Assembly (NCBI RefSeq): GCF_964355755.1
Contig: NC_092675.1
Span: 1,183,001-1,247,000, forward strand
Length of the DNA: 64,000 nt
Direction: 5' to 3'
From: Antedon mediterranea
Lineage: Eukaryota > Echinodermata > Crinoidea > Comatulida > Antedonidae
Part shown: positions 20,820 through 49,457 of the stretch, in pieces
Layout: every line of letters begins with the position of its first letter
Numbering within the stretch: position 1 is the first letter of the stretch
Notes under the pieces: generated by a model
Told to the model about the DNA's origin: nothing
Databases searched by the model: none
The model's input: only the letters and a program-made list of their open reading frames with translations
Program-made: the position numbers and the translations under genes

Positions 20820-23800
20820 TCAATCCTTCAATATTTTTGTCCTCTTTGCGCACTTCCACATAGAGTAAGAGATCTTGGCTAGGCCGACTTCTTTAGGCTT
20901 GTCCAAACCTCGCATGACACGATTTTTCATCACAGATACAAATTCATGGTGACTTAGCTTGTTGTCATCTACAAATAAAAAGTTGAAATAAATTATATTG
21001 TTTTGTGCATTCACTGAACCAAAAGACAGCAGCCCATTCTCAGGATTGTATCTAAAATTGGGCTGTATCATAGGCATATTCTGTGATACGGTGTCAGATA
21101 TGTTTCATATGTGATATGTATTAACAGTACCTCTTAACACTTAATTTAACCTGATAAAAGCATCACATGTGATGCTGTGTTACAGAATATGCCTATGAAA
21201 CTGGACAAATGTTGTCATATGTTGAGATACACCACTGATAATATTTGGCTACGATGATATACAATAATTCTCCAACTAAACAAACATGGCAGGCTTATGA
21301 GTGTCGTACTTGGAAAAAATGGCCCCTTGAAAAAAAAGATTTACTCTTAATTTTGTTTCACCTACCATCTTCATCAAAAAGTGTAAAGACAACATCTGTT
21401 AAATGATTAGATAGTTCTACATTGGCAACCATCTTGGCAACATGCTTAAATGTTTCTATGGAAACAATTACACAATAATATTGTTAATAATATGGCAATA
21501 CAAATTATAAATAATAAAAAATCCTTAGGATCAGGGTTTCAGAAGAGATTATTAACCATTTTGTTAGGATTAGGGTTTCAGATGAGATTATTAACCATTT
21601 TGTTAGGGTTTGCCAATTTTAAAATTCTAATTCAACTTGGATTCCTTTCGAGATTGAATTTTGTGATATCTTCATTGTTCTCACTATAATATCTCATAGA
21701 CTAACCTTTATCAACAGACGCACCAGCCACGTGATAGAATGACAATGCTAAGTCAATGTCATTGATGTTCCTTAGCATTTCATGAAGGTTGAGGTAATCC
21801 ACCAAGCTTATGCCCTAAAATGAACAACATACTCAAGTAAGTCTGAAATGGCTTCCATTTTGTAAATGTAAATGGGGAAATAACCTGCGACTTGCAGCCT
21901 ACTGGGCTGAATTGTCAGGTATGGACAACACATAAAATAACTTTTTCCTATTTAAAGGGTCCAAGACGACTTGTTCTACTACCAGAACAATGGTTGGCCG
22001 GCAAGCATATGAACACATAAAGTTTAAACAGTCAACAGTTAATTGATGTTTTTAATAATAATGATTGTTTTACCAGAGGATCGTCACGGTACTTTTTCTT
22101 GACTCGTTTCATCATCTTAATTTCTCTTTTGCGTGTTATATTGGCGTACACAAGTAACAGATGAGCCACATGTTGTTCAGTTATCTTGCCATCCACTGGA
22201 CCACAACGCTCAAACTAAATATTTTGATTATCAATTTTTAAATGATGTACAAATACATTATAAAGTTTCTGCTATAAATTAGTAAAGAACACTTCATATA
22301 AATCATATTAATGTGAGGATTATTTCTTTTAAAAATATCAACATCTCAAAAAATTAAAAGAACATTATCAACTTTGGAATTATTGTACAGATAACGTTAA
22401 TGATTATGAAAACTCAAAAAAGCCTCATAGTACCAAGATTAAAATCATCCTCATTTTAATAGTGAGGGTTATTTCTTTAAAAAATATTAACATTCCAAAA
22501 AGCTAAAGAACTACAATTTACCTCCATTCTTAGAAGCTCAAGTCTAAGTTCTTTCTGAAATTGAGCAAAGTCTGCTGTGGTCAATTTGCGATCTAGGTTA
22601 GGCCCAAAGAAGTATGTAGACAGTGAGCTAGCCGCAGTATGTTTGTCTAGTGTGTTGCCTGTAGTGCTGCGATCCCGATGACGTTTACCAGTAGCTGTTT
22701 GAGCTCGAATAACATCAGTCACCTAAGAAAAGATTGTTTGAATCTAAATATTAAAACATTGTCAATTTAGTTTAAAGTTCAATTATATATAATATATTAA
22801 GGCATACAAGCAGACTCCAGGATTCCCAACATCCATAAATTGACATTGAGTTATGTTCAGCACTTCATTTTACCCTTTTAGATACTACTTCACATCCTCA
22901 ACCCTCAATTTCAAAGTCCTGAATCCAATAATATTCTATAAGTTACATAAAACAAGAAATATACCTTAGAAAATTCATCATTTGACACAACACCATCGCC
23001 GTTTAGATCAAACAATCGAAAGGCAATCTCAAAATGTTTACTTGGAGCTGGAAACAAAATTTAAAAAATTACAAGACTTTTTGTTTAGTTTTTTCTATTT
23101 ATTTGCATGTCTTTAGGCCAAGGATTACCCATAGTAAATTAATCACAGCCTCTAACCCATGCCGATATTGTTGGCTCTTTAATTTGTATGTCTTTAGGCA
23201 CATGTGGCCAAGGATTACCTATAGTAAATTAATCACAGCCTCTAACCCATGCCGATATTTTTGGCTCTTTAATTTGTATGTCTTTAGGCACATGTGGCCA
23301 AGGATTACCCATAGTAAATTAATCACAGCCTCTAACCCATGCCGATATTGTTGGCTCTTTAATTTGTATGTCTTTAGGCACATGTGGCCAAGGATTACCT
23401 ATAGTAAATTAATCACAGCCTCTAACCCATGCCGATATTGTTGGCTCTTTAATTTGTATGTCTTTAGGCACATGTGGCCAAGGATTACCCATAGTAAATT
23501 AATCACAGCCTCTAACCCATGCCAATATTGTTGGCTCTTTAATTTGTATGTCTTTAGGCACATGTGGCCAAGGATTACCTATAGTAAATTAATCACAGCC
23601 TCTAACCCATGCCAATATTGTTGGCTCTTTAATTTGTATGTCTTTAGGCACATGTGGCCAAGGATTACCTATAGTAAATTATTCACAGCCTCAAACCCAT
23701 GCCAATATTGTTGGATCGTTAGGTACGATAAACGGCGCTCTTGCCTTAACCGCTTGGCTATTTGACTCAGTGAATGACAGACTACTGGTGTTGAAATATT

Positions 23801-26800
23801 ATACTTACTAGATAGAACAGTTAATAAAAACATATAATCAACAAATGATATAAGACCACACTCTCCAAGATTGAAAAAGATGCTGTTTTCTTTCAGAGAA
23901 ATGTACTTCTGTTTAAATGTCTGTAAGCAACAAAAGCATTAGTATAATGTAATATATCTAAAAAATAGGAGATAAAAAATCTCCCTTTAATCATTAGATG
24001 CTACTGTAGGTGCTGATAACTGAAACGAAATTTTGAATTCATGAAAAAGTTTGTAATATTCAATAAGATGTTGACATTTTAAACTTGAGCCACTTTAATA
24101 TCTATTTTTGCCTGCTTTTGTACTTAAGTTCAACATGCAGATTATTAATGTTAATTCAATGTTTATGTTAACGTAGATATTTTTTTCAAGACTAATAAAG
24201 TATGCATGATTCTTTTTGTTTTTAATCTACCAGAAAATGTATTATCGTCCATATTATGACATCATGCATTTTACTGATTTTCATGAATTTGCTTTTATAC
24301 CAGAATAAAAACATAATTTTTCAGAAATGCAGATAAACTTTAAAAAAGTGAATTTAAAATGTGTGTTTTCGTAGTCCGACTAGACTACAAAGCTACTTGT
24401 CTAAAAGACATTCTGCATAGCATACTCTGTGAAACCCATAGACAGTACTAGACCATCAACTGTATAGACAGCAAGTGATTCCAACAAGAGAAGGGGGGGG
24501 GGGGGGAGACACTCAAGATGGTCACCGTAATTAAATAATTTAATGCTTTAAGCATATAAAGATTTTTTCTTACAGATTAATATTCTAACTATACCAGGTA
24601 TACAAGGTATTATTATTAATTAGCATAACCCATACCAGTTGCTATTTTACATTTGAATCCATAACACCAAAAGCGATACCCATTACCAGTGTGTAATTCA
24701 TAATTGATCTAGACTTGCCCCTAGTCTTTCAAATTAATCATAATAAAAATTGTCAATATTTATTTATATTAAAATATATTGCTTTAAAAGAATTCTGTTT
24801 TAGTGAATTTAAAAATAATTTGTGTAAAGAAATGATATAACAAACTAGCATAAAATCACAGAAGAAATTGTAATTTGGTAACTACCTTATGATTACTATA
24901 CCTATTTTTAGTTTGTTTTTATTTTCCCTGTACATACTTTTTCTCTTGTTGCATCCTCTCTTTGGTATGAACTCCCACAATCAACCTAACCTCCTACAGT
25001 ACTCATTTCGAAAGATACTACATTTTAATATATGTTCTTTAAATTGCACATGAGCTAGATTTGTACACTGAACCTAGAGTTTATAGAAGACTTGTTCTAC
25101 CACCAGAACCATGGAGTGAGTGAGTCTCAAACCCTTGCCAATGTTATGGCTACGTAATTACAGTTCCAATTTCTTAACCGCTCGGCCACTCACGGTGTTG
25201 ACCAGTGTATAGTACTTCTGGCCAAATAACACTAATCGTCGAATTGTAAGCAATGAATACTACAAACAATACAAACTAAAGTGAAAGCTTTTTAAAATAA
25301 AACATGCTGTATTAGTATAGAAAAAACAGAACACTACAACATTTTTAATTAAACAAAAACATATAAAATCTAATATTTACAAAATCAGGATTAATAACAA
25401 CAATTAGATATATTGTGAATTTAAGAAAAACATCACTACAGTATAAACTGCAAAATTTTATAAAAATAAATTATTTTTATATTTTACTAAAAAAAAAATG
25501 CAAAAAAACAAAGAAGCAATAGGGTCGTGTTGCAATACTTTTGATTTTAATAAATTATAGTGTAGCTGTATAGCTTTAAAAAATGAATGTCCACTTTCCA
25601 AACTTAAAAAGTACTGTATAGTATAATGTATTTGACTATACTGTATAGGATTTTTTATATACAGCAGAACATCTGCCTGCATGAATAATGATAATAATAT
25701 TTATTTATTTTTGTAGGCCTAGCATCTAAAAGAAAGCCGGAGTAAAAAATATCCAAATGATCAAATATACAGCCTACATTAAACAACATAATTTTGCGGA
25801 CGTTCCACTTCTCTTTGATAGTAAAAGTTCCATTCTAAGTAGTTATTATGAATATAAACAGACAGGCAAAGATGCTTTAAATATAATTATTAAAAATAAA
25901 TAAAATATGCCGATCTGTGTTGGGAAATTTGGGTAGGTGGTTAAAATTGGAAATTTCAGATTGCCTCGTCTGCCTCATGCTGGCTACGGCCCTAATGAAT
26001 ATGCTATATTCATGAATTTTTTTTTAATGAAGTCTAGTTGCTGTCATTTTCATTCTACTCTATATAATAGTTACTTTGTTTGTGTGTGTGCAGCATTTTT
26101 TTTTTTGTGAAACATTATGAGGCTTTTTTTAAAAACCTTGAAATGATTTAAGGATTTAGGCATATAGGATACTTTTTTACGCTTGAATGTTTTGATGTTA
26201 AATAATATTAATTTGTATAATACTGTATTCGCTATTGTTGAAGGATAGTTATAATAAAAGTGGACATTCGTTAATAAGATATATATAGACCATGTAACAA
26301 GAAACACACAAAACAACCGATACAATTGAAAATATATATAAAAATATAACAATATTTAGTTTAATAAAAACATTTAATATGTGTTGTGAAGAGTAATATC
26401 AGTATAAAATATACATGGTCTATAGAATGAGATAAAAAAAAAGATTTTTTTGATCAGCTAGATGCTTTGGAAAAAATTACAGCAAAATAAAAGCTATGTT
26501 TTTTTAATAAACACAACAACCCAACAAACAAACCTGTTGGAACGTCGCCTTTTCATGTCTTAATTGCTATAAATATTTGGGTGAAAATTTATCAAAAAAT
26601 TACTGATTTGTGTTTTTAAAAAAATGAAGCAAATTTTTCAGTATACTGTATTTGATAAACCGATATTAAGATTTCATAAGTTTGTAAAAGTAAAAAAATC
26701 ACTAATAAAAATAAAAGATATAAATAAATATATAAAATCAGGGATTTGAAAGATATACTTTTTAAAGATTGAAAAATAAAAATTAGTAATAAAAATAGAA

Positions 26801-29012: not shown

Positions 29013-30187
29013 CTTTTTTCATGGAATGTACAGTTACATCTGAAATCAATATATTTGGTACTATTACATTAATATTGTATATTATGTCTTTTAACATATT
29101 AAAAGTAATCTAGGGCATTTGACAAAGTGATTTAGTCGGTTGGAAGTATATATAACCTTCGGGATAACAGACAATCAGCAACGTCCATGGACCTGGTTGT
29201 CTTTCCGACCCCCCCCCCCCCCCTTCCCCCCCCTACTTTGGCAATAAATGGTGAGTAAAGACGATTTTATCAAAAGCGCATCTATCTAGCCTGGCACTCA
29301 ATGTAAACAAAATAATGCAAGCATTTTCATCTGTCACCTCTACATACTCTATAGTCTAACAAGTTACAAGGCTAGATGTTTTTAGCTAGCCTATAGTAGC
29401 AGACGGTCAGTTTATATGAATATGTAGCTAGCCAACCCTCTCTAGTGACTAGTCCAGCCTAGAGGCCTAGCTTAGCTAGACTCGAGTAGGTCTACCTCCT
29501 CCTCCCCTCTAGATATAGCCTACTAGGCCTAGGCCTAAATACAGAACCGGCCTAGGCTAGGCTAGGCCTTAGGGATCTCCGGCCTTAGTTAGCCTTTATT
29601 TACATCCAATGGCTTATATTATTCATTATACTACAAACTTCTGACTAATATATCTGTTTATAATCAGTAACTTTATAATTGGTCCGAAAACAAACAAAAA
29701 AAGGAAACACACCTTATTTTTCTCCCAAATCCATTACTAAAATCATTGTTTTCTGTTTACAATAACAGCGCCACCAAGAGGTAGGCATGGAACAACCAAC
29801 ATTAACAACAACCATATCCGCCCACAAACAACTGCAACAACCAAAAGAAAATAATTCACGGTTATTATTTTTGTTGTAGGAAAGGTACGTATAATTTGTG
29901 GTTCTTATCACTGAAAACATACAATAATAAAATTACCAGTTGAAAACATCATTAGCCTAGGCTAGTTAAATTGGTTGCTTCTATTTCACTTGTTGAACAT
30001 ATTCAAGGGAGGAGAATCGACTGCTCACCCACCACACACACAGTACAGAGAGCAGCAGTCAAGGAAAAACCTATTGAAAGTAGCACGGTAAATGTGGCCT
30101 CGCCTCCAAAATTTTGTTCAAAAATAAGCTAGTTTTATCCTTATTTTATTTGCTACCCTACTTTCAGGTGGAGAGGTCCTTTTAGAT
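29013..30187. promoter_or_regulatory. Divergent MICU1/MCU promoter region with likely 5' UTR exons
   Basis: The two start codons face away from each other across 1175 bases. Both first coding exons begin with a splice acceptor inside the 5' UTR: minus strand TTGATTTCAG 20-30 bases before the MICU1 ATG, plus strand CTACCCTACTTTCAG ending at 30167. So each gene needs an upstream non-coding exon here. A candidate MCU donor is AGCACG/GTAAAT at 30087-30088, and a candidate MICU1 donor is CAACTG/GTAATT near 29934 (minus). No TATA box is evident. Part of the region is rich in TAGGCCTA/CTAGGCCT words (29370-29590), and a poly-C run lies at 29212-29233. Confidence 0.6.
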
Positions 30188-33100
30188 ATGACTGGAAGAA
30201 TGATCGTGCGTGATATCTGCTTCAGATTTCAACCTTTGCATCAAATTATACTGAAGAAAAAGGTAAAAAAAAATGAGGACACCGATTGATTGATATCAGG
30301 ACACTGATTGATTGATATCAGGGGCGGATCTAGCATTTTGAATTAGGGGGAGGGAAGGTGGAGGCGCATACTTTGCGACAGGAGCTAACAAACCTTGGAA
30401 GGGTAGAGTGCCAAGGGGTCTGACATTATAGCACATTGCAAGAACAATGTACAAACATTTCATACCGTCATTTTCAGATACACTCTACACTCAGTGTAGG
30501 GTCTTTCACACATGTTCCGGCATCATGGTTCCGGTACGGAGAAGCGAACACCAATGTTTCATTTGAGTGGTGTGAATGAGTGGTTGGGGTCAAAGTTGTG
30601 ACAGGGAAGGGCGTGTGGTTAGCAGTGTGTCCATGCATGTCGATTTCTTTGAGTTGTTCCGAAATCAACTATTTTAAAATTGTTAATTAACGACTAAAGG
30701 ACACAATTTAATAACAATACAATGCTTAGTTCCTTGTTATTAAATCCTTTATAACTTTTGTTACTTTTATATTTTGTATTTTTTTTACATTTTCTTATAT
30801 ATACAGTAGGCCTATTGTAATTTAATTTATTTTAATTACTCTGGACACACCTTCACTGAAGAAGTGTGCCACTGTTTCTCAATGTGTAATTTCCAAATAA
30901 ATTATTATCAGCAGGAAATTGGTTGTTTGTTATCTCTAATTAACTAAATAATTAATGACTTTAGAGATAAACAAATTTTCCTTATTACTAATTAGCTATG
31001 AGTAGTGGTATATTATTTACCAATTATAGCAAATTAGGAAACTCATAGATAGAAAAGATCAATTCAATCCATGTGGAGGAATTATAAATAGTTTTTTGTA
31101 ACTAAAAAAGATCGAATAATGAAGGCTAGCTCTACCAAACAAATTCATCATAGCATTTTTCTGAAGTGGAATTCTATTACTTATTATTATTACTTATCCA
31201 ACTGGTACAATATAACCATTGACAGCGTTCAGTATTGGATTTGGTTTTAAGGTCATTTTCACAATTACATTTACTGGTACAATGGTGTATTCAACAATTT
31301 ACATTATTATTACAATTTCTAATGAAATGTTAATGGTTATTTTGATTAAAGATCCATATAATGTATTTCTCTAGGCTTAATTATTTTTTAGTTATAAAGT
31401 CTAGATTCATAAAAGCATTATTTGGGCAAAACTACTTGATGATAAAGACAAAAAGGTTGAATTACAGCTATGCGCATATTGGGAAAAGATTGGCACATAG
31501 CCGCATGGAGCATCGTGGAAACGAACCATTGAGTTGCGATTTTATTTTCCTGAGCCGGACCGTAGCAGGGGTGAAATGAATGAAATCACTGTTGATATTG
31601 TTCAGGTTTTATGCAGAATTTTGAAATAATTTGTATTAATTAATAATCATCACTGACTGGCTGATTTAAAATGTTCAATTACGATTTTATTGTAGTATTT
31701 TTCTTTATACAGTCAACTCTCCCAATACCGGACTCTCTGAAAACCCGAAACTCTCCTACTACCAGACTTTTCTTGAAGTCACAAATTCATTTTTACCACT
31801 AAAAATGCATTCCTAATACGATACTTTTTGAAACAAAACACATTTGGCCAGCCCAAAGGTGTCTGGTATTGGGAGAGTCACATTTGGCCAGCCCAAAGGT
31901 GTCTGGTATTGGGAGAGTCACATTTGGCCAGCCCAAAGGTGTCTGGTATTGGGAGAGTCACATTTGGCCAGCCCAAAGGTGTCTGGTATTGGGAGAGTCA
32001 CATTTGGCCAGCCCAAAGGTGTCTGGTATTGGGAGAGTTGACTGTAGATAACGAACACTATTCCTGGTATGCAACACAGAGACCATAGTTTTATTTACTG
32101 TAACTAGTTTTTATTTATTTATTTTTTTTTTCAGGATCTTGCTGTTACACCTTTCAGGATTTCCTCTGCTTTCTATTGTACAACATCAGTTAACCAAGGT
32201 TAGACTTTGTAATATTATTTTGTTATTATTTATGTATTGGATGGCCTCTTCAGTCAAAGGCTGGCCTCCCAGAGGGCCCAGTTATGAACAGTTGCTGTGT
32301 GTGCGTACTACCTGTAGACCGAGGTATCCTCTACTTGCTTGAAAGATGTACTGGATTCTTTAAATTGCACATGAGCTAGATGTGTACACTGGACCTATGG
32401 TTTATAGTCCTTATCCAAGAAGACCCGTTCCACCACGAGAACCATGTAGCTAGTGAGCCTCGAACCCTAGCCGATGTTATGGCTACGTAATTTCGGTTCC
32501 ACTTGGCCACTCACTTGCTGTTGCAAGAAAAATTACAATTTTTATGTTTTCATGTGAATATTTACTAGTATATTCATGTGATATTTTAATTACTCAGATC
32601 AATATATGATCTGCACGATGCCCTTTACTTTTTCTAAGGCATAATTAATGCATTGCTTCTTAAACTATGTTCTACTTGTGACTACAACATGCTGACTTCT
32701 TGTAACTAAATGACATTTGTCATTAAATTGTTCTCTGGAATTGAGACAATAAATTGATGACCGTGCTGTTTCAACATTCAGAATGTAAACAGATTGCAGC
32801 TTAACTAGGTTGAATATTCTATGTCCTTGAAAATTTGAATAATACTGTTTACTTTACATACATTAATATTGTATACTGGTAGCATTACAGTATTTTATTT
32901 TAGCTATCAATTGACATCCATGTACATGTTCATGTTTATTGTGTATTTACTCACAAATGACAAAAATGTTATTTAACAAATTCTGTTTGAAAACATTACT
33001 GACTAAAAAGAACATTATAGTTCTAAAATGCAACAAGAAGTTTAAATTCACTAATTCCCCTAGAATTATTGTATAACTACCGGTACCCATAAAATCAGAG

Positions 33101-36100
33101 GGCCTTTGACCTTTTTTTTGTTTCTAGTGTAAAGGATCTTTCACACCTGTCCCGCCACGGTTCTGGTCCGGCGCCGGAAAATCCAATCGAACGTCAATGT
33201 TTCGTTTTCACGCGGCTACGTGCATATCGATTGGCGCATAGCCGCGTGAAAACGAAACATTGATGTTCGATTCGCCGGACCGGAACCATGTCGGAACAGG
33301 TGTGAAAGACCCTTTTACCTCTAAAATCAAGGAAGATCGAGTTTAATTCTATCAAAATACTGATGGAACCATTTTGGAATCATTTCATCGCCCCTGGAAA
33401 ATGATAAAAATAAATAATTTCATTTTAATAATACCGTAATTCTAAAAATGAACTAACTTTTCATCATTATTCAGAAACTTTACAATATGGCAATATTTAA
33501 ATATACTGTAAAATATAAGTTATACATGATCGATACTATGTATTTATTAATAATACTAAGATTCTGGTTGAAATGACTTGTATGTATTAGAATAGTGATG
33601 TTGAATGATTAGTCTTGCTTTAATATAGGAACATCAACATGTTTTCTTATAGACATACTGTATACTACATAAATATATCTACAGTAAGTAAAGCTCCAAT
33701 TGCAATTTACGAATTCATTGAACAAATCAATCATTCATTAAAAAAAATGTACATTTATTTATTGCAATGCCTGTTATGATGGTGTAATGATGATAATAAC
33801 GGACTAGATCTTTACCATACTGATTGCATACTTAGGCAGGATGCTTTACCCCATTGCCTCGTCATTCGGATGGGATGTAAAACCATTGGTAGACTATTCG
33901 AAAAGGGTAGGGGATCGTCTCCCGGTGTGCTGATCTGGTAGGCGCTGCACAGCTAGCTGCCGTGTGTCTGTGGAGGACCTAATCCGAATTTCTCCAGTTA
34001 AGATTGAGGACCGAGAATAAATACAAATTTACCATTTATTTTTATCTCCAACAAATTCTTGTAGGTTTCTTAGTATTAAAAATGCTCTAATGATATCAAT
34101 AATCTATCTAATTAAAATGTGAGTAGTTCAATATCATTTTAATAATTAACTTGAATTGAGATAAAGTTCACAGTTTGAGGAAGTTATTATTGGCTTTAGG
34201 GATCTGCAACCTGGATGGATGAGGGATTTTAAACTAATTATAATCTCTCTATTTAATAACCAGCTAATGACAATTGAATTTTTAATGTAGTTGTCCAAAC
34301 CATATTGTCTAGATTAAGGCATCTATTTAATTACCAGAGCCAAGAAGTAATTGTGCTCAGATAAAAAAATTCATGGACCTGTAACATGATTTGAACTAGT
34401 GTATTTCGTGCCTAGCTTACCTGAGGGCGCTCTGGTAATGGACTATTCCACTATCCGACGGGGGTGTGGTATTTTAATATACTAATGTTCTTTTTTTCGT
34501 AATGTATTCTCTTCGGAGAGTGAGACTAATGTTGGTTTATCCAGGTAAGCGGCAACACCACTGTTGGTTTGTGTAATTACCCTTGGATTGAAAGCATGTC
34601 AGCCACACTCTACTACTATTGATTTATAAAAATACCATTTACAGAAAAATAGCACAATTTATGTGATGTGACTGTCTGAAAAATCTGGAACTATTATAGG
34701 ATTTGACCAATTACTCTAGGATTAGTACAAGCAATCTCTCCTCCCCCCCCCCCCAAAAAAAAAATCAAACATAGCAAACCCCATTTAACCAACATTAATG
34801 TTATTGAATTAATCAAAACAATTTAGTGTATGAGTTGCTGTGGACATGATCTCTATCTAGATACTGTATAATTCAGCTTGTAACTAGTATAAATTATATT
34901 TAGATACTGTATGTAACTACAGTAGTATAAATTATATTTTACAACAAAAGTCAAAGCAATAACAAGAAAATCCACAATAAGCACATACTTGACTTCTTAA
35001 TGAATTCAGTAAGTGTCACAGTGTACAGTCGTTGAGAATCCCTGCATGGCATACTAAACTGCAATGACGTTGAGTTACAGAAATAAATAAATTGCAGCAA
35101 TAATCTCAAGTGGACTCAATTACCATCACGCATATTACGGTACAGAAGCAAATATTTATCATAATTTTTGATGAATTTTGAACATATTTTAAAGACAATT
35201 TGTGAAGATGTTAGGGGGAAAACTTGAATCTGTAGTTTGGAGTTAAGGCGCCAGGGAGGACATAATCCAATTCCAATGTTGGACAAATAAGTGAATTGAA
35301 TATGAATTCTGAGCATTTTTTAGCTGATAGTGATAATGATGATAATTTTGTTAGCATACACATTACAAAGATCGCTTTTGTTGTTTTTTTTATGATAACA
35401 GTTGAATGCTATAAGAGACACCTTTAGGATCCAACAGGGTGTCTCCTTGTTTTACTATGGTTTCCTCTGAACAAGGATGTGACGTCCTATAAAGAGGATC
35501 AATCAAATGTTTAATACTAAACAAGTATTGGAAGGGTTTATTATCAGCAGCCATTTTAGTACACATAATCTAGCTTGTTTTGTATTCAAGCTATCCTATT
35601 GTACTCCATGTTTGTATAGCATATTGTAATACTTGTTTTGATGATGATATTGATGATGGCATTGTTCTATTCTTCTACAGTAACTATTTGTTTGATCTAC
35701 ATACTAGTAATGTATTATTTATCAAAGCTAACTAAAATAATTTGATAACACTTAATACTGTATGTATATATATTTCCTTCTTTTTATGTTTCTTTAAATA
35801 AAAATAAATTCATATTTTACAGTGTTTGAAGGTGATGTTAACGTTCTTGGGTCCAGTTTAAGGTTTATAAATGAAATTCTTTCTCACAGTAAATCTATAT
35901 CCCTTGAAGAAGCAATTTTACAGTACTGATTATATAGAATAGTACGTAGGCCTATCATTAGTACTGTACACTGGAGTATGCAAGTTATAACATAGAATTT
36001 GAACAAATATTGACTAATGTACTTCTCATGTGTACTTTTATAATACTACATCTACAATTTCGTATTCAATTCAATTTAACAATATATCTTATTATACACA

Positions 36101-39100
36101 GTATTGCATTTTTAAAGGACCCATCTATTATTATGTTGACCATGCTGTCTAGTTATTTGTCCAACATTTTTATTGTTAATGTTGTTGTATTCACTAATAT
36201 TAGTATAGTACAGTAAATAGACATAATCAAATCTAGAGGCTGTCAAAATATTGAAAAGCATGACAACTGTTATAATGGTAACATAATCAGGACATTTACT
36301 TGACATTTAATTCAGTGGAGGTTTGTTTGTGGTAATTGAGGGTGCACTATTTCAGTATATGAACACCTTTCAAAACATTAGCCCATAGCCAATAGAATAA
36401 CATTAGTATGTTTTTTAATTAGATTTTACAATACAATATATGTTCATTTTTGCTCAGCTGGGCTAATTCAATGAATTGGTGCATATTGTTTTAATAATTA
36501 TTATTTGTTTAACAAACATAGTGTGTTTCCTATATATTATGTGGTTTTAAAAGATAAACTAGGTTTTATTGAATATTATTATTAGAAACTATAAATTATT
36601 CAAAGGAGACAATTTTTCCAACTTGTAGGTAGTTACTATTCACAGTAGATTACATTGTAGGTAGTTACTATTCATAGTAGATTACATTGTAGGTAGTTAC
36701 TATTCACAGTAGATTACATTGTAGGTAGTTACTATTCACAGTAGATTACATTGTAGGTAGTTACTATTCATAGTAGATTACATTGTAGGTAGTTACTATT
36801 CACAGTAGATATACATTGTAGGTAGTTACTATTCACAGTAGATTACATTGTAGGTAGTTACTATATTCACAGTAGATTACATTGTAGGTACAGTAGTTAC
36901 TATTCACAGTAGATTACATTGTAGGTAGTTACTATTCACAGTAGATTACATTGTAGGTAGTTACTATATTCACAGTAGATTACATTTTAGGTAGTTACTA
37001 TATTCACAGTAGATTACATTGTAGGTAGTTACTATTCACAGTAGATTACATTGTAGGTAGTTACTATTCACAGTAGATTACATTGTAGGTACCGTAGTTA
37101 CTATTCACAGTAGATTACATTGTAGGTAGTTACTATTCACAGTAGATTACATTGTAGGTAGTTACTATTCACAGTAGATTACATTTTTCTTGTTGAATTA
37201 TGTGCAGCCAGTTCAGGTTTGAAATCAAACACCAAATATTGTAATATACCAAGTTTCAATTTGATTTACAGACATGACTGACAAAAAACAAACTGCATAA
37301 TGTGTTTCTTTTGAAAGAAGTTTCATATTAATATACATACTTCTTTTAGCATTACTCCTATACTGTAGATATGAAAATACTGAACTACTTAACTGCTCTA
37401 CATACATTAATATTGTTCACTAGCTTAAAAATTTAATTTTTTGTCGATTTCTTAAATTGTAGCAATAATTATTGGCTGTAGAGATACAATATCTTATAAA
37501 TATCTTAATATATAAATGTTCATTATTAATTAAGGTACTTTATTATTAGTGAGGATATTGAGTCATATTTATATTTGAATAATATGGTAGTGATCGGCCC
37601 TAATTGGTTTGTATGTTCACTTTATATTAGTAATAATTCTTTGTTTAATAGTATAAAGTATGAAGGCTTGCGGTCACCAAAAGGAGTTAAACATACTCTG
37701 TAACATTGACAATATTTTATCTAAATAATAGTTTCGTCCAGGCCCATATCAACATTTTTAATTCCAATCTTTATCTGTTTCATCGTAATTTAAGTGTTTC
37801 TGAGTTGTAATTATCTTTGTATCTGTTAAACCAAGCTGTAAGTGGCAGATTTGTTTTTGCTGTTGATTCTGGATTAAAAATAAAATAGAAAAAAAAAATC
37901 TCAACACTGGTTGTTTTTAGGGCAAATAATAATAGTCAATTTTACTCTAGTAGCTAGATCAACTTTCGTATGCACTTTGAGGTCCAGAGAATTTGACTTC
38001 AGAAATTAGTTTAGGGTGGTCAAACAATCATTTTTGGCTTGGTTACACATTTTGAAAATGTGGCGAAAGGTCAAAAGGTCAGGGTGAAAGGTCATAAGAC
38101 CAAACACCAATATGTCCTTAAATCTGAACAACCACTGGTCACAGCGAAGTAATTTTGGTCTCAAATTGATCAGAAGGTATACATTTATATTCAGTCTAAT
38201 GGGACATTTTAGTTTAAAATGACCGGAAATGCCATTTCTGACCTTTGACCCACAACCCATGGCATGTATTTATCTCCGTAACTACTGGTCGTAGACACTT
38301 GAATTTGGTTTTAAATTGTTCGAAATATATATTTTGTTATATGAAAAACATTTTGAAAAATGTTACAAAACGTCAAAGGGTCAGGGTCAAGGGTTATATA
38401 AACAAATAAATAAAGGTACTTGTATCTCGGCAACCACTGGTCGCAGCAAGTCAATTTTGGTCTCAAAATGTTCAGAAGGCATGCATTTATATTCCGTCTA
38501 ATGGGGCATTTTAGTAAAAAATGATCAGAAATGCCATTTCTGACCTTTGACCCACATACCAGGGCATCTTCATATCTCTGTAAGTACTGGTCGTAGAAAC
38601 TTAAATTTGGTATCAAATTGTTCGAAATATACATATTTACATTCATTGTAATAGAAAATGTGGTTAAAAGATGAACAGAAAATACTATTACTAATGTTTC
38701 AAACAAAAAACATATCTCTACACAACTTATCCTTAGACAGTAATGTTATGCAATATGATACTTTAAATTGTTTCAATTTCAAGTAGGCCTACTAGTTATT
38801 GCTGTCCACGAGAACATTTTGATATAAACGTCAGGCTCAACAGTTCTTTTCAGAATGCTAGAAGTAACTTGCCATGTGTATCCGATTAAACGCCCCGGGC
38901 ATTTATTGTTCAAAAGGGTTTTTAGGGGGAGGGGAGGCATCTTTATTTGGGGTATAATATGGTAACATGTATAATCAAATAAATACCACCTAGATGTAAA
39001 AAAATACAGCACAATTAATATAAAAAAATGATAACATTATGTCAAAATGCTTGGTAAATTGTAGATTATGGTAATTAATGAAATGTGTTGTGATACAATT

Positions 39101-42100
39101 ATTTTGTAAATGCATGTGGCGGAGCGTTTATTCCACATGATGTTCTATTGGAGGGAATGGAGGCTTTTATTCAAAGCGGGTGTTAATTCGAATAAATACT
39201 CGAGCTCAACAGTTAAGAATGCTAGAAGTAACTTACTATAGTTACCCGAATAAAAGGTCCGGGCATTTAGTTATTCAGAGAAGGCGTTTATTTTGTTTGG
39301 GTGTAATAATGGTAACATGTATAATCAAATAAATACACCCCAGATAAAAAAAAAAAAATTAATATAATCTGAATAATAACTGGATTAAACCTCATTCTAT
39401 CCTGTTGCAAGTACAATCATGTAATATAAAAGGTATCACAGACAACTATAATAGACCAATTCATTGTCATTATTCCGTAACACTGTTGCATAATATTTTT
39501 GAATGTTACCGACAAAACTTATACATAATATGTATAAATTTTGTCGGTGTATATTATACACGTCTGTTCCCAGTGTAGATAATAAAACAATATATGTTTC
39601 TGGAGATTTATTATCAATACCACTAGAAACTTTGACATGTTTTAGGTACTGAATTCATTGACAATAAAAGCATCAGAAGTTATCATGATAAAATCATACT
39701 ACAACACTGTACTACAGTACACAAGGGTGTTTTCAGGAAAGCTGGACATATTGTACAATAGTAATGAAGCTATGTATTGGCATTTAAAAATATGCAAAAG
39801 ATTGTTGTCAAATTGTAGTCACAAACAAACAGATGATAGAATGAAGATCCATTATGAGTGCAATTGTGTCAGGATAATGATGTGTCATTGTTTTATATCA
39901 TTATACTGGCACCTGGAAGAGAAGATCCATTTAATGTTATCTATGACAGTGTCACTTTTATTCTAAAAGACAGAAACATTTCGTTAAAAAGCATAAAGAA
40001 GAAAACGAATCATGTAAAGTACCTTTTATCAGTTGAGAAACGAATTATAATTATTAAAATTAGAGTATTTATTCGAATTAACACCCGCTTTGAATAAAAG
40101 CCTCTCTCAAATAAACGCCACCATTCCCTCTAATAGAACACCGTGGAATACGCCCGCCACATGCATTTACACAATAATTGTATCACAACACATTAACTAC
40201 CATAATCTACAATTTACCAAGCATTTTTTTCACTTTTTGATATTAATTGTGCTGTATTTTTTTTTACATCTAGGTGGTATTTATTTGATTATACATATTA
40301 CCATATTATACCACAAATAAAGATGCCTCCCCTGCCCCTAAAAACCCCTTTGAACAATAAATGCCCGGGGAGTTTAATCGGATACACATGGCAAGTTACT
40401 TCTAGCATTCTGAAAAGAACTGTTGAGCTTGACGTTTCTATCAAAATGTTCTTGGGGTCAGCAATAACTAGTACTTGAAATTGAAACAATTTAAAGTATC
40501 AGTTATTGCATAACATTACTGTCTAAGGATAAGTTATGTAGAGATATGTTTTTTGTTTGAAACATTAGTAATGGTATTTCTGTTCATCTTTTAACCACAT
40601 TTTCTATTACAATGAATGTAAATATGTATATTTCGAACAATTTGATACCAAATTTAAGTTTCTACGACCAGTACTTACAGAGATATGAAGATGCCATGAT
40701 ATGTGGGTCAAAGGTCAGAAATGGCATTTCTGATAATTTTTGACTAAAATGTCCCATTAGACGGAATATGAAAGCATGCCTTCTGAACATTTTGAGACTA
40801 AAATTGACTTGCTGCGACGAGTGGTTGCCGAGATACAAGTATCTATTTTTATTTGTTCATATAACCTTTGACCTTGACCCTTTGACCTTTTGTAACATTT
40901 AAAAAAATGTGCTACAAATAATAAATATTTATTTCAAACAATTTAAGACCAAATTTAAGTGTCTACGATCAGTAGTTACGGAGATACATACATGCCCTGA
41001 GGTGTGGGTCAAAGGTCAGAAATGGCATTTCCGGTCATTTTTGACTAAAATGTCCCATTAGACTGAATATAAATGTATACCTTCTGATCAATTTGAGACC
41101 AAAATTACTTCGCTGTGACCAGTGGTTGTTGAGATTTAAGGACATATTGGTGTTTGGTCTTATGACCTTTCACCCTGACCTTTTGACCTTTCGCCACATT
41201 TTCAAAATGTGTAACCAAGCCAAAAATGATTGTTTGACCACCCTAAACCAATTTCTGAAGTCAAATTCTCTGGACCTCAAAGTGCATACGAAAGTTGATC
41301 TAGCTACTAGAGTATTTTCCATGCACAGAGACAGAAAAGCGGAGAGGAGCATGCATAATATGACTCTCCATGTGGATTCACCAAAGCTGTACTTAATTTA
41401 TATTAATAATACATTTATATAGCACTACCTTGTGAAGATCAGAGCGATGTGGACTTACTTTATTGTACACTGTAACCCTTACACATGAAATTCTACTTTC
41501 ATTATTATATTATTAATCCTACTAGGTTTCTAAAAATAGTCATCTTTCAGTTAGTAGATAATGATTATAGTAATGCTCAGGGCTAAAAGCAAATTAATAA
41601 GCATGTGATCCAGATCTTCATCTTCAACTTTAGTAATTCAGCCTAGAGGTAGGGTACTGCAAGCATTGCTTGATGAAATTTACACTAATTGTGTTTTTCA
41701 AGGCTGGCCAAACTTTCTAATGCCTATTCTCACATTTGACTGAGAATTAATTGTGTACAGTCAGCAGTGTTTTACATTGAATGTCATGCAGGTGATTAAC
41801 TTGTCTATTTCGTGCCTAGCTTACCTGGATAAACCGACAATAGCCCTTTCTCCTCGAAGAGCGAGATTTTAACTCGAAAAGTAGAAAGTTAAAATTCCTA
41901 CTTTTTCTTTCTTTGTAATGGATTCTAGACATGTTCCACTTTTAGCCTCTGTATCCAGGATAAAAACTTTTTTCTGTTTACAGTTGAGTTTGTTGTTTTA
42001 TTGATCATAATTATTTTATATCATGTCTGTGATAACTATTAGTTGTTTATTAATATTATCTGAATTAATGTTTTAGTGTTTTCATTAATTTTTATATAAT

Positions 42101-45100
42101 GTTCAGATTTCTGGTAGCGTTTGTTAATTTGTTTTTTCTTCCTCAGGTGTAACTTGTCACTATCGTAATGGTTTACCTGTTTTGCTGGTTCCTCTGCCTT
42201 CTCGACAAGAGCTATGCCAGTTCACATTGAAACCTATTACAGAGAACGTGGGCGATTTCATTAACCACTTAAAGCGTGAAGATGGTGGTGTGGAGACTGT
42301 TGCTGTCTATAGTAATGGTAAGTTAATTGATAGAAATTAAGAGGGCTTTTACAGCACTAGCCACTATTCATCAATAATTGAAAAAAGATGTAGGAATTAA
42401 AGGGCAAATCCAATGTCCTAATGCAATGGTCAAAGGCTGATCCTAGTTTAGCACTCTTAATGGGCCCTCCAACACTGGGTAGTCACATTGAACTCTCATA
42501 CTCTGGGACCCCTTAAGCTTGGTATTCACATTGGACTCTCATACTCTGGGGCTCTCCAACACTGGGTAGTCACATTGGACTCTCATACTCTGGGGCCCTC
42601 CAACACTGGGTAGTCACATTGGACTCTCATACTCTGGGGCTCTCCAACACTGGGTAGTCACATTGGACTCTTATACTCTGGGGCCCTCCAACACTGGGTA
42701 GTCATATTGGACTCTCATACTCTGGGGCCCTCCAACACTAAGTAGTCACTTTGTACTCTGGGGCTTCTTAAGCTGGGGGTTTAGTCAGTCAGCGCTGATT
42801 GACGTTACGCCACTGGGCATACCATTTTCCTAATATAGAAACTATGATGGAATTTCTGCAGCACTCTCTCTATTAGATACAGTAGAAACTAGTGACGATA
42901 CAAGGTAATAAAAGTTGTTCTTAATGAATTAGTGACTGAAACAAGATAGCCTTGCTTATGATTCCTAAACCTGCAACTTGTACACACAGTCTAGAAATCT
43001 AATTGAATTTTAGTTTCTCTGATATCATTACTATCAGACAAACTAAATTATGATTATAGATTATACGAGAAACATAATGCTAAAATAACATAACCTACAG
43101 TGATGATAAATGATGTTAATTGATGTAATATCGCAAGTGTATGGAATTTGATTCTGGTAATAGTAATGAACTCTGCATGTAACGATCAGTTGTTCAAATT
43201 TTATGTTTGCTGTCAGTCAGAGCAACATAACAACATTATGTACAGAGTACCATTGTGCATGTTTACACTGTTTAGGAGTACTTTGAGGTTTCTAAATATG
43301 AAAAGTACAGTATTAGAACTTAGTGAATTTATAACTTATTTAAGCTTGGTTCCCACTAGAACGTAACGCAAGGACGTAAACGCAATCACAAGCGTTTTAA
43401 CCAATGACAAGCGAAGTTATAGACAGTAAAGCTTGGTTCCCACTAGAACGTAACGCAAGGACGTAAACGCAACGCAAGCGTTTTAACCAATGACAAGCGA
43501 AGTTATAGACAGTAAAGCTTGGTTCCCACTAGAACGTAACGCAAGGACGTAAACGCAATCACAAGCGTTTTAACCAATGACAAGCGAAGTTATAGACAGT
43601 AAAGCTTGGTTCCCACTAGAACGTAACGCAAGGACGTAAACGCAATCACAAGCGAATAAGCCATAGCTTGTGATTGGTCAATTCACTTGCGTTGCGTTAC
43701 GTCCTTGCGTTGCGTCGCTAGTGGGAACCACGCTTTAAACTGTGGCATTATTTTGTATCAGTAAGTTTGCTCAGTTGTACAATTTTGTTAAATGCTGATG
43801 TTAACTGTCGGTATAATGTTTGCAACATTATGTAGCAAGGTCCCCTGGCAATATAATCGGTCGTACGATATTAAATATTGTTCCCTTTCTATTTATACAT
43901 ACAGTACTGCAGTGCAGTTTAATATAACTCCTCAAATCTAACCTTTTTAATTTCACTTTTATTTTATTCTTTTGCTCTTTTCTGTTGATATATAAAATAT
44001 AAATTTTTAAAAATATATTAAATTTTATTATTAATATTGAAATATAATACTGTAGGTTCTGTCATATCATGATATTATGCACATTTTAAAATCTTTACTT
44101 TAACAAAAGAATCTTTATTGCTTAAATTTTAAAATTGCTAGAGACAGGAATGTCTTTATGAGCTAGTTTTCCTGAAATACCACCATTCAGAGCTACATTT
44201 CTTGACAATCACAATATATCATGATAATACAAAATACCCATACTGTGACATGAACACTGTTTATTAAAATCTATACTCTGTGTGAAATATCTCAATATAA
44301 CCCAATAATAATTTGCCAAGTTAATCAGACATGATATACTTTACTTTGTGATTGATTTAGAATAAATGGTGTCTGTACTGTGGTTTGTAATATCATGCTA
44401 ATGATATGTGCTACAGTACTGTATGTTGTATATAAGTTGATTTGTATTTTACACTTGACAGATTGCAGGTTATAGTGCTGTTCATTGCATTTGTCACTGT
44501 GGTTGGTGGCTATTTGCAATGTTTACAGCGTTCGCGACCCTGGCTCGCGTAGATTTTTATTTAAAGTACTATAGAAAGCTAATTGTGTTGACTAATGTCA
44601 AAATTAGATGTTGGTGAAAGGAATCATGAAGAGAATGTGTGTGTATGTTTGTCCACTATACAAAATATTAAATATCAAACAACAGTATCCATACACATGG
44701 GGTATCAATATGAACAGAATTGTACTACTGTATATGAAGATTTGACTCATTTTATACCTATATAAGATAGTGTAGTAGTAGTCAGTGGTTAACATTCACT
44801 GGTTTCCAAAAGCATCAAATCCTAGCATTGCATACATACTTGTAGGCCTACTGTAAATATATTAAATAAAGCACAATTTTAGTAGACATTCGAGTCAAGA
44901 AAATGTCCGAAGTCATTTCTAAGTAGCTTTACAAGTTACACAATGGACTGGTGGTTTGGAGTGTGGTTGTGATGCTTGGCTACCAATCCAACAGTCCTGG
45001 GTTCTAATCTAATGACAAATTACAACTCTTTATCCCAAAAACCTGAAATAAGACTTTGTTTATGTAGAGCATCTTGTGTATACGTTTGTCTTGTAAACAG

Positions 45101-48100
45101 GATTGCCACCTTTAAGAAGGATTATGAATGAATTCGCTTATGGATCTTACAATTTGCCTAAATATATAAAAACGAAAATAAAATCAAAAACACATTGTAG
45201 TCATCATTACATCATCACCATACCAACTACAGAATCATGTTTTTTTTCCTTGATTGACCAAGAAATTAAGCAAAGTACCAGCTACAAAATGCCTCTGCAT
45301 CATCACTATGTTAAAGACAACAGAAAATGAATGGAAGAAGATATCATTAGTCATTATAATTAATAAAATGATTGATTTTTAAACTACTTTAATGCATCCA
45401 ATTAAACTTCATAACATTCATTGGAAATGCTTGTTAATCATAATGAGAAGTTTATTACGAAGATGCTTGTTCATATCAATAAAAATAAACTCTTAATACC
45501 ATTAAAAAACATCTTCAGGTCGTCATTTTTTTATTCTAAAAATAATTCTTTTTATGGTTGGACAAAACTAAATATGCAATATAAATAAAGCAATAATTTC
45601 TTCAGATGTAACAACGTTACAGGGCTTTCATACATTCTAATTATGATATTAGGCCCTTTTTAGAGCCTCTAAACATCAACTTAAAGATTACGTCTGTATG
45701 CGCACACATATGCAAGGTCCCATGCTAATCAGATCATCTTGCTTATAGAATATTAAATTAAACCAATGGGAGGCCTTCATAATGCACTGTACAGTACTTC
45801 AACTGGATTTCAGCCGAACATCTTTTATCAAGTGTATTTTAATGTCATTTATGTTTACTGTTTATTAGTGTTTTGTACATTCCAAAAGATGAAATATTTC
45901 GCCATTTAAGATAATTGTTTATGCTAGCCAGAAAGATAGGAATTTGTTGGCCCAATGTTTTATCAAGATAGGCAACATTAGTTTTGTAATAGCACTAAAT
46001 ATATAACACCCAAACTTTTTCCTCTACCCATAGCCATAAGAAGACATGAATATTTGAACAACTGACGATCTTGTTCTCAATTCTTTCACCCAGGGTGGTG
46101 ATTGTCAAAGTGTCTCCTAATACAACTAATAATATCAGAGACATTATGAAAGCAAATTAAGATTTTTTGTCTATTTTAAAAATGAAATATTTTTAAATCA
46201 TCATACTGCAGTACTGTTTGTTATCTCATAAATATACGTCTTATTATGTGAGAATACACTGTATCATATTTTACCATAATTTTTCAGTAATTATCATCTT
46301 TTTCAGATGGCATTAAGATTGCAAAATCAACAAGTATAGACGTATTGATGAAAGACAATTTTCAGCTTAAGATCAATGAAAATTCTTTTGAAGTCAGTCC
46401 ACCAGAAACAGGTATGTGGCATGTCACTGTATGCATAAGTTCTGTCTACATTATCAAACTTTATGTGACAAAAAAATGATGTCATATCACTACCATATTT
46501 GGGCACATCACATTTTTTTGTCACATAAAGTTTGATAGAACTTATGAATGCTTTATTATGCTCATGTTTATAAAGAGAGTCGGAGAGAGATAAAGAATTT
46601 CGCTCTTAAATAGCAAATATTTGATATTTAAACTCTATGACATTGTCTTATTTTAACAGTTTGAAATCAAGCCATTACAGTGATGATGTATCCATTTACA
46701 TTGCAATGAGACCTACTTAGAAGCTACATTATGCAGTTGAATGAATAGAGAGTTTGAATAAATATTAATGGATTTTGAACCACAGAGAATAGCAAATAGT
46801 TCATGCTTCTCTAGCAGCCATACCGATGTCCTTGCATTAGACCCCATGCCCATTAACAATAATTATTACCAGGGTAGCCTGTATTTTAGTGGCGCTGTGG
46901 CTTGGTGGTTGACATTCTTGCTTACTAATCCAAGGGTCTTTGGTTCAAATCCTGTTACGGTTCCAGAATTATTCTGATGTGATACATGACACTACCTAAG
47001 CATCATATGAGACTTAGACATCGTTATTAACAACTTTAAAACCTTTGGAACTAGAGATCGGATTGAAATAATTTATTTTTATTCGGATGTGTAATATTTA
47101 TTTTCAAAGTAAGTTGTAATCTAATAAATGATTTTTCAGACTTCCGACCGTTTCCTCCTGAGAGCGTATTATATGAGGTTTAGAACAAATGGGGTTGGAC
47201 ATTGTTATCTTTATTAGTTCATTTGAATAAATATCAATTAATGTTGTCTTTGTTTGTTTTTTCATTGTAGTTGCTGCAGTTAGTGAGGATAGTACTAATC
47301 TGTCTGATGTAAAGTCTATGGTATATCAGTTGTATTCATCACTACATGTGGAAGAATATCAACTAAACCAAGAAAAGAAACTTGTCCAACATCTTGAAGA
47401 TCTTAAACTTGAACTTCAACCTCTTGAGAAGGTATATTTCATTTTCATTTCATTTAATTCATTTCGTCTTTTTATAAATAATAAAAAAACAGGTCACAAG
47501 GTACAGGGCACTTTAGGGGGTAGACGGGTTTGTCAAAAAGTGAAACAAAGCACTATTGAGTGACTCTCCGACCCCCTAAAGTGTAAAAATTAAATAAACT
47601 TAAATACAGAGAAATTGAAATAGTCCTCAAAATTGATGATGTCATCAAAAAAATATCGACAATCATTTTTTTATATGAACTATCTATAACAAAAACAATT
47701 ATTAATATCCAAGTATGCAATGAATGATAATTAAGATAAAAATCAAGCGCAAGTCTTTATTTAAATCATTGTTTGAATATTAAAAATCTATTTCAAAACT
47801 ACAAATTGATGGTCTAAATATTTTTGGCAATTTTTCTTGAGAATTAAACATTTCAATTGTTCAATTATATAACCTTTTGAGTTTTAATTGTCTGCACTGC
47901 ATTTACTGTACCTTGTTCACTGTCTCTAAAGATTTAGTTTTTAGTGTGACGGAGCGATGTCGAACTCATAAACACGTTCTAAATTTTATTTTATTTTTCA
48001 GATTAAATTGGAGCTTGATATCCGTGCATCAAAACGAACAAACCTTGTGATCTGGGGCGGACTGGGGTACATGGCACTACAGTTTGGTCTGTTAGCGCGG

Positions 48101-49457
48101 CTAACTTGGTGGGAATACTCTTGGGATATTGTTGAACCAATCACATATTTTGTTACTTATGGCTCGGCTATGGCTTTGTATAGTTACTATGTACTTACAA
48201 AAGAAGTAAGTCTGATAGTACATTTTGATTGGTTACAATTTTATTGCAATATCAATATACTGTGGGTACCTTCTCCTTATAGGAAACCATTAAGACCCAA
48301 AATTAAGTGAACCCTGAGTTTTATACCCATGCCTAAACCAACCAATTTTTGGACCATCTCCTTGAATAATTTATTCTATTGAATAATATTTTTATATTAA
48401 CTTTACATTATTATCGAAGAAAAAAGTAGGAGATTCTTAAATTTTAAGACAATGTCTGTTCAAATTTCAGCTAACCAAAAATGGTTAAAACATGGCAATC
48501 AAGTATGTTAACCATTTAATTAATTGGCAACTTCATTTATCAATATTTCAAAATTGTTTAATTCAACAAAGAGATATTATATTCAAATGATTATTCCATA
48601 TTCTAGACTGACAAAAACTTGCTTGTTTGTAAACTGTAAAATATTAATATTTGATGCTTCATATCTCACTTATTTTTTTGTAAAAAGATTAATTCTAGGT
48701 TGGGTTATGCATTTGATGAAATAAGTGTTTGGTATCTATGGATGGGCAAGCATGTTAACAAACATTCTGCATTGCAAATAATGATAATTGATTTGATGTT
48801 TCAGGATTACACAAACCCTGGTGCTGCTGATCGTCAGTATTTAAAGTTCTTTCATCGATTTGCTAAAAGGAAACAGTTAGACATAGCAACATACAACAGC
48901 CTCAAGGATAAAGTAGCACAAGTGAGAATTACATTACATTAGAACCCCTGCTTTTGGACCCCCTATTAAGGGACAATTTTAAAGTGTTATGAGCGAGGCT
49001 GCTTATATGTTATAGCATTTCAGTTAACCCAGGGGACACGTTGTTATGTCCTGAAGGTGTACTCATCTACTGTGGGTTTTACTGTATTACTCTGTTTTAG
49101 GAGTTAAGCCGGTTTTCTGTTGTATGAAATGTCATAAAAATTAGAATCTACCTGTCACGTCACTCAGAAAGTTTATAATCGGAGGAATAGAATAGGAATA
49201 AAATATGATTTCCAGACCTTCTTATTGTGATTTTTCATGTTGGAAACAATATATTTCCACTGTGTACAATATATAAAATATTAAAAGGTTTGTACACCAA
49301 TAAAATCTTTTGTGGTGGGGGGAAGTTCAAAACACCACATTTTTTAGCCTAATTGATGTGATTTTTTTAACAGGTGGAACAAGATCTTAGACGATTACGT
49401 GATCCCCTTGCTCTTCACCTTCCAATAGCTCCTCCTCTCCCACAAGTTGAAGAATAA
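30188..49457 (+). CDS. MCU: Mitochondrial calcium uniporter pore subunit (MCU)
   Basis: Exons 30188-30262, 32135-32198, 42147-42317, 46307-46411, 47271-47431, 48002-48205, 48805-48921 and 49374-49457 join in frame to 326 residues (human 351). MCU forms the calcium pore of the inner mitochondrial membrane. Exons 1-2 give a basic, acid-poor presequence ending [20 protein letters not shown], which aligns with the human mature N-terminus. The matrix NTD ([26 protein letters not shown]) follows, then coiled coil 1 ([20 protein letters not shown]), TM1 about 205-223 and TM2 about 238-256. The selectivity motif between them is [10 protein letters not shown] at 233-242, so DIME reads DIVE. The Asp and Glu that coordinate calcium are kept, as are the Arg and Glu of [10 protein letters not shown], which argues against the MCUb paralogue. 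Intron 2 is 10 kb. Poly(A) signal at 49712-49717. Confidence 0.96.
30475..30570. mobile_element. MITE family 5 fragment
   Basis: TAGGGTCTTTCACACATGTT CCGGCATCATGGTTCCGG and CCAATGTTTC match one arm of the complete hairpin at 33131-33316. In MCU intron 1. Confidence 0.6.
31470..31570. mobile_element. MITE family 5 fragment
   Basis: GGCACATAGCCGCATGGAGC and GGAAACGAACCATTGAGTTG, then GAGCCGGACCGTAGCAGGGG, correspond to the right arm of 33131-33316. A similar remnant is at about 1745-1860. Confidence 0.5.
31710..32044. mobile_element. pogo/Tc-like non-autonomous element with internal 40-bp array
   Basis: Terminal inverted repeats of 24 bases match at 23 positions: left CAGTCAACTCTCCCAATACC GGAC, right GTCTGGTATTGGGAGAGTTG ACTG. 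Both ends are flanked by TA, the target duplication of Tc1/mariner/pogo elements. From 31841 to 32038 the interior is five 40-bp units, each ending with GGTATTGGGAGAGT, a copy of the inner terminal repeat. No transposase frame. It lies in MCU intron 1, about 90 bases before exon 2. Confidence 0.9.
32355..32518 (-). mobile_element. tRNA-derived SINE, second copy
   Basis: On the minus strand: AGTGAGTGGCCAAGTGGAAC (A-box), TAGGGTTCGAGGCTCACT (B-box), then the same body as 25037-25200, including CTAGCTCATGTGCAATTTAA. In MCU intron 2. Confidence 0.75.
33131..33316. mobile_element. MITE family 5: near-perfect 186-bp hairpin
   Basis: The left half (GGATCTTTCACACCTGTCCC, CGTTTTCACGCGGCTACGTG) is mirrored by the right half (CATAGCCGCGTGAAAACGAA, GGAACAGGTGTGAAAGACCC), with a loop of about 15 bases near 33222. 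Locally GC-rich against its surroundings. In MCU intron 2. Confidence 0.9.
33830..34025 (+). mobile_element. SINE-like dispersed element, class unsure
   Basis: A GC-richer block with GCCTCGTCATTCGGATGGGA, GGGGATCGTCTCCCGGTGTG and the A-rich end GAGAATAAATACAAA. The CATTCGGATGGGA phrase is common in invertebrate repeats, which is why I flag it. No A- or B-box is clear. Confidence 0.4.
34400..34575. mobile_element. MITE family 3, both ends present
   Basis: Left ATTTCGTGCCTAGCTTACCT, right TGTTGGTTTATCCAGGTAAG with GCGAGTGAGA-like GGAGAGTGAGACTAATG before it. About 175 bases. In MCU intron 2. Confidence 0.65.
34741..34764 (+). repeat. Poly-C/poly-A tract
   Basis: A run of about 13 C directly followed by about 9 A, in MCU intron 2. 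Confidence 0.85.
36626..37184 (+). repeat. 32-bp minisatellite, about 17 copies
   Basis: Unit GTAGGTAGTTACTATTCACA GTAGATTACATT (32 bases), with occasional 2- to 5-base insertions such as ACTATATTC and GGTACAGTAG. In MCU intron 2. Confidence 0.97.
37943..41314. mobile_element. 3.4-kb foldback element with 1.26-kb inverted arms
   Basis: Left arm about 37945-39208 is mirrored by right arm about 40056-41312. Outer ends are CTCTAGTAGCTAGATCAACT and AGTTGATCTAGCTACTAGAG, each flanked by TA. The spacer of about 850 bases (39209-40055) has no recognisable transposase. Part of the left arm (about 38830-38950) is repeated in the spacer start (39210-39330). Arms carry many TGACC/GGTCA half-sites, including four exact TGACCTTTGACC-type sites. 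It lies wholly within MCU intron 2. Confidence 0.9.
41805..41885. mobile_element. MITE family 3, one end
   Basis: ATTTCGTGCCTAGCTTACCT then GGATAAACCGACAATAGCCC, followed by CCTCGAAGAGCGAG. In MCU intron 2 close to exon 3. Confidence 0.65.
42455..42765 (+). repeat. 44-bp minisatellite, about 7 copies
   Basis: Units contain CCAACACTGGGTAGTCACAT and TGGACTCTCATACTCTGGGG, with minor variants (GGCCC versus GGCTC). In MCU intron 3, about 140 bases after exon 3. Confidence 0.95.
43341..43737. mobile_element. MITE family 4, with the left half amplified in 87-bp units
   Basis: AAGCTTGGTTCCCACTAGAA CGTAACGCAAGGACGTAAAC begins units at 43343, 43430, 43516 and 43603 (period 86-87). The right end at 43690-43737 is the inverse (GTTGCGTTACGTCCTTGCGT, GTGGGAACCACGCTTTA). 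Each unit carries AACCAATGACAAGCG. In MCU intron 3. Confidence 0.9.
44945..45035 (+). mobile_element. tRNA-like SINE fragment
   Basis: GTGGTTGTGATGCTTGGCTA followed by CCTGGGTTCTAATCTAATGA, a B-box-like motif. Related to 46890-46975. In MCU intron 3. Confidence 0.4.
46438..46541. mobile_element. MITE family 1, copy f
   Basis: TTCTGTCTACATTATCAAAC at the left and TGTCACATAAAGTTTGATAG at the right, with ATCACTACCATATTTGGGCA inside. It begins 27 bases after an MCU exon. Confidence 0.85.
46890..46975 (+). mobile_element. tRNA-like SINE fragment
   Basis: A-box-like TGTGGCTTGGTGGTTGAC and B-box-like TTTGGTTCAAATCCTG at tRNA-like spacing. It does not fold with a matched acceptor stem, so it is not a tRNA gene. 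In MCU intron 4. Confidence 0.5.

Follow-up and report, generated by a model that had tools for sequence, protein, structure and literature searches.

MICU1 and MCU, the gatekeeper and pore genes of the mitochondrial calcium uniporter, are single-copy neighbours in the genome of this crinoid, where they lie complete and head-to-head with their start codons 1175 bases apart. We consider it fairly probable (roughly 60%) that the two genes have formed a divergent pair at least since ambulacrarians and vertebrates last shared an ancestor, and that the arrangement most likely works as a bidirectional promoter within the 1.2-kb interval between them. The window that we analyzed is a stretch of 64,000 nucleotides (bases 1183001-1247000 of contig C6, NC_092675.1) that contains no N bases, and it belongs to a compact genome of 354 Mb in 18 contigs. 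Positions given below are counted from the first base of the window.

Structure and linkage of the gene pair

Spliced models were complete for both genes, with MICU1 on the minus strand and MCU on the plus strand. The gap between the start codons was read directly from the sequence and confirms the divergent orientation and the distance of 1175 bases given in a preliminary description of this DNA.

20820..29012, minus strand: MICU1 gene, 11 coding exons, 466 codons, from spliced alignment to human MICU1
29012-28843, 28519-28375, 28047-27885, 27394-27357, minus strand: MICU1 coding exons 1-4
23920-23809, 23047-22965, 22722-22522, 22214-22074, minus strand: MICU1 coding exons 5-8
21814-21706, 21455-21366, 20968-20820, minus strand: MICU1 coding exons 9-11
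29013..30187, no strand: interval between the start codons, 1175 bases, which would hold both transcription starts
30188..49457, plus strand: MCU gene, 8 coding exons, 326 codons, 378 bits to full-length human MCU (phmmer)
30188-30262, 32135-32198, 42147-42317, 46307-46411, plus strand: MCU coding exons 1-4
47271-47431, 48002-48205, 48805-48921, 49374-49457, plus strand: MCU coding exons 5-8

The MICU1 model runs from an ATG at 29012 to a stop at 20820, with GT-AG boundaries at every internal intron. Its assembled exons presented 317 bits to human MICU1 (phmmer) relative to 75 for MICU2 and 74 for MICU3, and this similarity identifies the minus-strand gene as MICU1 rather than MICU2 or MICU3. 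The assembled protein contains two canonical EF-hands, the first of which was matched by Pfam EF-hand models. An in-frame TGA is located 6 bases upstream of the ATG, so the start codon at 29012 is secure. In the human guide sequences used for spliced alignment, the parts that matter agree with PDB alignments. On the plus strand, the MCU exons in 42-49 kb scored 332 bits to human MCU; the pore exon matched PF04678 (114 bits) and encodes the DIME-type selectivity-filter motif WDIVEP. The stop codon falls at 49457, exactly where the preliminary description had ended the gene.

Across the 354-Mb genome, MICU1 was found in one copy and MCU in one copy, the latter as the sole MCU-family gene, and the 1175-base interval is itself single, one 48-base match aside. 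Because each of the three is single, duplication or misassembly is unlikely. An origin of the interval from a repeat was also rejected, since the interval is single copy. We further considered a direct linkage of other parts of the uniporter and rejected it: EMRE is located on C1, and not on C6 with MCU, and a MICU2-like exon (a weak match) is located on C5. In the fly, uptake has been reported to require EMRE as much as MCU (PMC6506686).

The adjacency of MICU1 and MCU is found in independent lineages, as given by published gene lists for human and duck. The human 10q22 list, ordered along the chromosome, gives DNAJB12, MICU1, MCU, OIT3 (PMC4256931), and the list for duck chromosome 6 reads Oit3, Mcu, Micu1 (PMC13255704). 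A homozygosity study also reported CBARA1 and CCDC109A, the old names of MICU1 and MCU, in one peak of chromosome 10 (PMC3129671). Any genome browser likewise shows the two genes side by side in human. Nevertheless, no head-to-head order, synteny or shared promoter of MICU1 and MCU was described in the open-access literature that we searched, and no map positions of mcu-1 and micu-1 were found in worm papers on the two genes. The preliminary description had also placed the human genes at 10q22.1 as divergent and widely spaced; their side-by-side position stands on the published list. We take the human genes to be divergent, the published lists giving order only, and we assume a gap of about 66 kb, which differs markedly from the 1.2 kb of the crinoid.

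The 1.2-kb interval and its possible regulatory role

We searched the interval for splice sites that could belong to non-coding first exons. The main candidates are:

30167..30168, plus strand: predicted acceptor of the MCU 5' UTR, CCCTACTTTCAG/GTGG
29040..29041, minus strand: predicted acceptor of the MICU1 5' UTR, TTGATTTCAG/ATGTAACTG, in the top 3.5% of AGs by PWM, a ranking that is unreliable for 5' UTR acceptors
29712..29713, minus strand: top-ranked candidate donor for a MICU1 5' UTR exon, AAG/GTGTGT, in the top 0.3% by donor PWM

The preliminary description held that a splice acceptor directly precedes both ATGs. This is plausible as a prediction. The predicted MICU1 acceptor ends at 29040, 27 bases before the ATG, and the AG immediately 5' of the MICU1 ATG scores poorly by PWM. 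The predicted MCU acceptor, TACTTTCAG, ends at 30167 and ranks in the top 2% of the window's AGs when a simple pyrimidine score is used, but only in the top 18% by a 15-site PWM; the acceptor PWM was trained on 15 acceptors of MICU1 and MCU and the pyrimidine score is ad hoc, so these rankings of 5' UTR acceptors are unreliable. Good candidate 5' UTR donors were identified inside the interval on both strands (plus strand: 29251, 29885 and 30088; minus strand: 29712 and 29936). Together, the predicted splice sites are consistent with the interval containing a non-coding first exon for each gene, and the two transcription starts would most likely both lie there, near 29.7-30.0 kb.

Read most simply, a divergent interval of this size would be a bidirectional promoter. 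We infer that the start sites lie in the interval, that the promoter is shared and that the genes are co-expressed. Both transcripts would begin inside the 1.2 kb, each with a first exon that is non-coding and is joined by splicing to the exon bearing the start codon. The bidirectional promoter would then be a single nucleosome-free region from which transcription starts in both directions, and it would lead to broadly correlated transcription of the pore and the gatekeeper. The final MICU1:MCU ratio would be set elsewhere, by the strength of the promoter on each side, by distal elements and by the stability of the mRNAs and proteins. Comparable layouts are the divergently paired (bidirectional) genes known in human, such as PREPL-C2ORF34 (PMC2713978) and SERPINI1-PDCD10 (PMC1796892), protein-coding genes that lie head-to-head with starts about 1 kb apart.

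Alternatively, it is possible that the adjacency was inherited but is neutral, the pair having simply remained unbroken with each gene using its own promoter in or near the interval. This is a serious rival, although we consider it on balance the less probable explanation. The interval presents a CpG o/e of 0.43 relative to 0.57 for the window; it contains no CpG island and no match to NRF1, ETS, YY1 or CRE motifs. The sequence thus does not point to any particular type of promoter, and the lack of known motifs speaks for neutrality. In addition, with a human gap of about 66 kb, as we assume, a short shared promoter would not be what mammals kept. The two genes are also regulated apart in mouse lung, where injury raises MICU1 and leaves Mcu unaffected, and the Micu1:Mcu mRNA ratio shifts during differentiation (PMC8876408). 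These observations do not support the preliminary claims that MICU1 and MCU are co-regulated and that gene order sets the stoichiometry of the subunits. More generally, whether microsynteny reflects functional constraint or low rearrangement is unsettled (PMC8851819).

Several results argue against neutral retention. The gap of 1.2 kb suits a shared open region, and two tested former neighbours, ECD and MRPS16, are now on other chromosomes. Moreover, the partners of human divergent pairs mostly differ in function (PMC3815023), whereas MICU1 and MCU form one channel complex, which is unusual for such pairs and constitutes a point in favor of function. A stronger form of the functional reading states that the pair is at least of deuterostome age, perhaps older, and was kept because pore and gatekeeper have to be driven jointly by a regulatory region common to both, thereby avoiding unguarded pores; flies and other lineages in which the pair was broken would compensate otherwise. 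We regard this version as doubtful.

The activity of the uniporter depends on the MICU1:MCU ratio. If a promoter region has indeed been common to both genes for half a billion years, as the bidirectional reading would have it, the pair would represent a natural test of gene order constraining the balance of subunits, and such a test would be far easier in an animal whose interval measures 1.2 kb than in a mammal.

The leader of MICU1 presents a further feature. If the predicted acceptor at 29040 is used, the leader (28951-29040, minus strand) opens with a minimal start-stop, ATG-TAA, followed by an out-of-frame ATG located 10 bases ahead of the main start, which begins an overlapping frame of 23 codons. 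With that acceptor, these ATGs could possibly exert translational control on MICU1.

The first exon of MCU

The shared interval requires that MCU starts at its edge. Spliced alignment to human MCU began only at 42.1 kb, which initially left the ATG at 30188 proposed by the preliminary description without support. The exon at 42147 needs a phase-1 donor and the exon 30188-30262 ends in phase 0, so a further exon was required between them. In 30.3-42.1 kb, only four internal exons combined a compatible phase with acceptable splice sites, and 32135-32198 was the best by far. This exon encodes AFYCTTSV, which an independent search aligned with human AVYCSTVV, and its homology to human MCU fixes the reading frame.

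30188..30262, plus strand: MCU coding exon 1, with a basic, mitochondrial-targeting-like N terminus; targeting peptides are beyond homology testing
32135..32198, plus strand: MCU coding exon 2, newly found, aligned to human AVYCSTVVPSDD

Upstream of the anchored exon 2, the exon 30188-30262 is the only phase-compatible ATG-to-donor exon in 29013-32130 (about 3.1 kb), and its basic product resembles mitochondrial targeting sequences. The start codon at 30188 is therefore well supported, as a prediction. It is conceivable that the true first exon of MCU and its promoter are located elsewhere, in which case the genes would be divergent neighbours without a short common interval; the predicted exon encodes a targeting peptide, for which homology offers no test, and MCU carries a second intron of 9.9 kb. 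Given the anchoring of exon 2 and the absence of any other suitable ATG exon in those 3.1 kb, we consider this improbable.

Age and surroundings of the pair

We then analyzed the descent of the linkage. Against 8snb, a sperm doublet structure from sea urchin, the tektin-1 of this genome scored 613 bits, and against mammalian tektin-1 at most 417 bits; exon 1 of tektin-2 presented 238 bits to sea urchin relative to 147 to mammalian sequences. By these two tektins the animal is an ambulacrarian, very probably an echinoderm. The tektin-3-like gene carried no phylum signal; the sea urchin structure 8snb is without that paralogue. Since the animal is an ambulacrarian and the pair is also found in vertebrates, the arrangement plausibly dates from the deuterostome ancestor. 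Assuming about 25,000 genes, we roughly estimated the probability of head-to-head adjacency by chance for a given pair as (2/25,000) x 1/4 = 2e-5, which makes inheritance from the deuterostome ancestor far likelier. We therefore infer common descent of the linkage, and MICU1 and MCU have probably stayed side by side for more than 500 million years. Regarding the "ancient co-regulated pair" of the preliminary description, the age is supported by the human and duck lists and by the chance estimate, and the co-regulation is not.

The linkage is not universal. In the fly, a single and derived representative of the protostomes, the published neighbours of MCU are sfl and javelin (jv), and not MICU1 (PMC6506686). 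The linkage is thus dispensable in at least one animal, and it may have been lost in the fly line or may never have been present there. The fly gene sfl is an NDST gene. In the crinoid, NDST is located on C6 with MCU, 25 Mb away (contig positions 26518679-26535604), and NDST2 is found with MCU in the human 10q22 list (PMC4256931). This weakly suggests a common ancestral chromosome for MCU and NDST, and possibly a very old link. Despite the separation seen in the fly, it is highly improbable that the genes were joined independently in the crinoid lineage and in vertebrates, given how rarely chance would produce this adjacency in this orientation, and given the presence of NDST on MCU's chromosome, which would follow if MCU had remained on the chromosome of its ancestor.

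A broad synteny with human 10q22 was not supported by ECD (C1) and MRPS16 (C11), both human 10q22 genes, and was weakly supported by NDST (C6, as MCU). Either the inherited pair outlasted its neighbourhood or these genes moved in the vertebrate line, which would have the same appearance. The pair resembles the ancient microsynteny blocks of metazoans, in which local order is kept across phyla, but those blocks were defined with at least three genes (PMC8851819) whereas MICU1-MCU is a two-gene pair.

The immediate flanks also differ between the two species: the human pair is bordered by DNAJB12 and OIT3, the crinoid pair by aldo-keto reductases and a fibrinogen-like gene. An Rfam scan of the window yielded no match. 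By eye, we identified three or more aldo-keto reductase genes in tandem, recognized from repeated exons, downstream of MICU1 (4496-16284, minus strand), and exons of a LIM-domain protein at the window's left edge (28-1646, plus strand). Downstream of MCU, we observed a secreted fibrinogen-like gene with an apple-like and a fibrinogen-related domain (53199-55177, plus strand), followed by a cytokine-receptor-like gene with exons of the immunoglobulin and fibronectin type III types (58539-60803, minus strand; both by eye). The latter contains the motif WSDWGPTYQ, which resembles a WSxWS box. Finally, tandem-repeat arrays with long open frames were found at 9695-10529, 20161-20510, 23007-23765 and 31777-32088; these arrays sit in or beside genes, including the introns of MICU1 and MCU.
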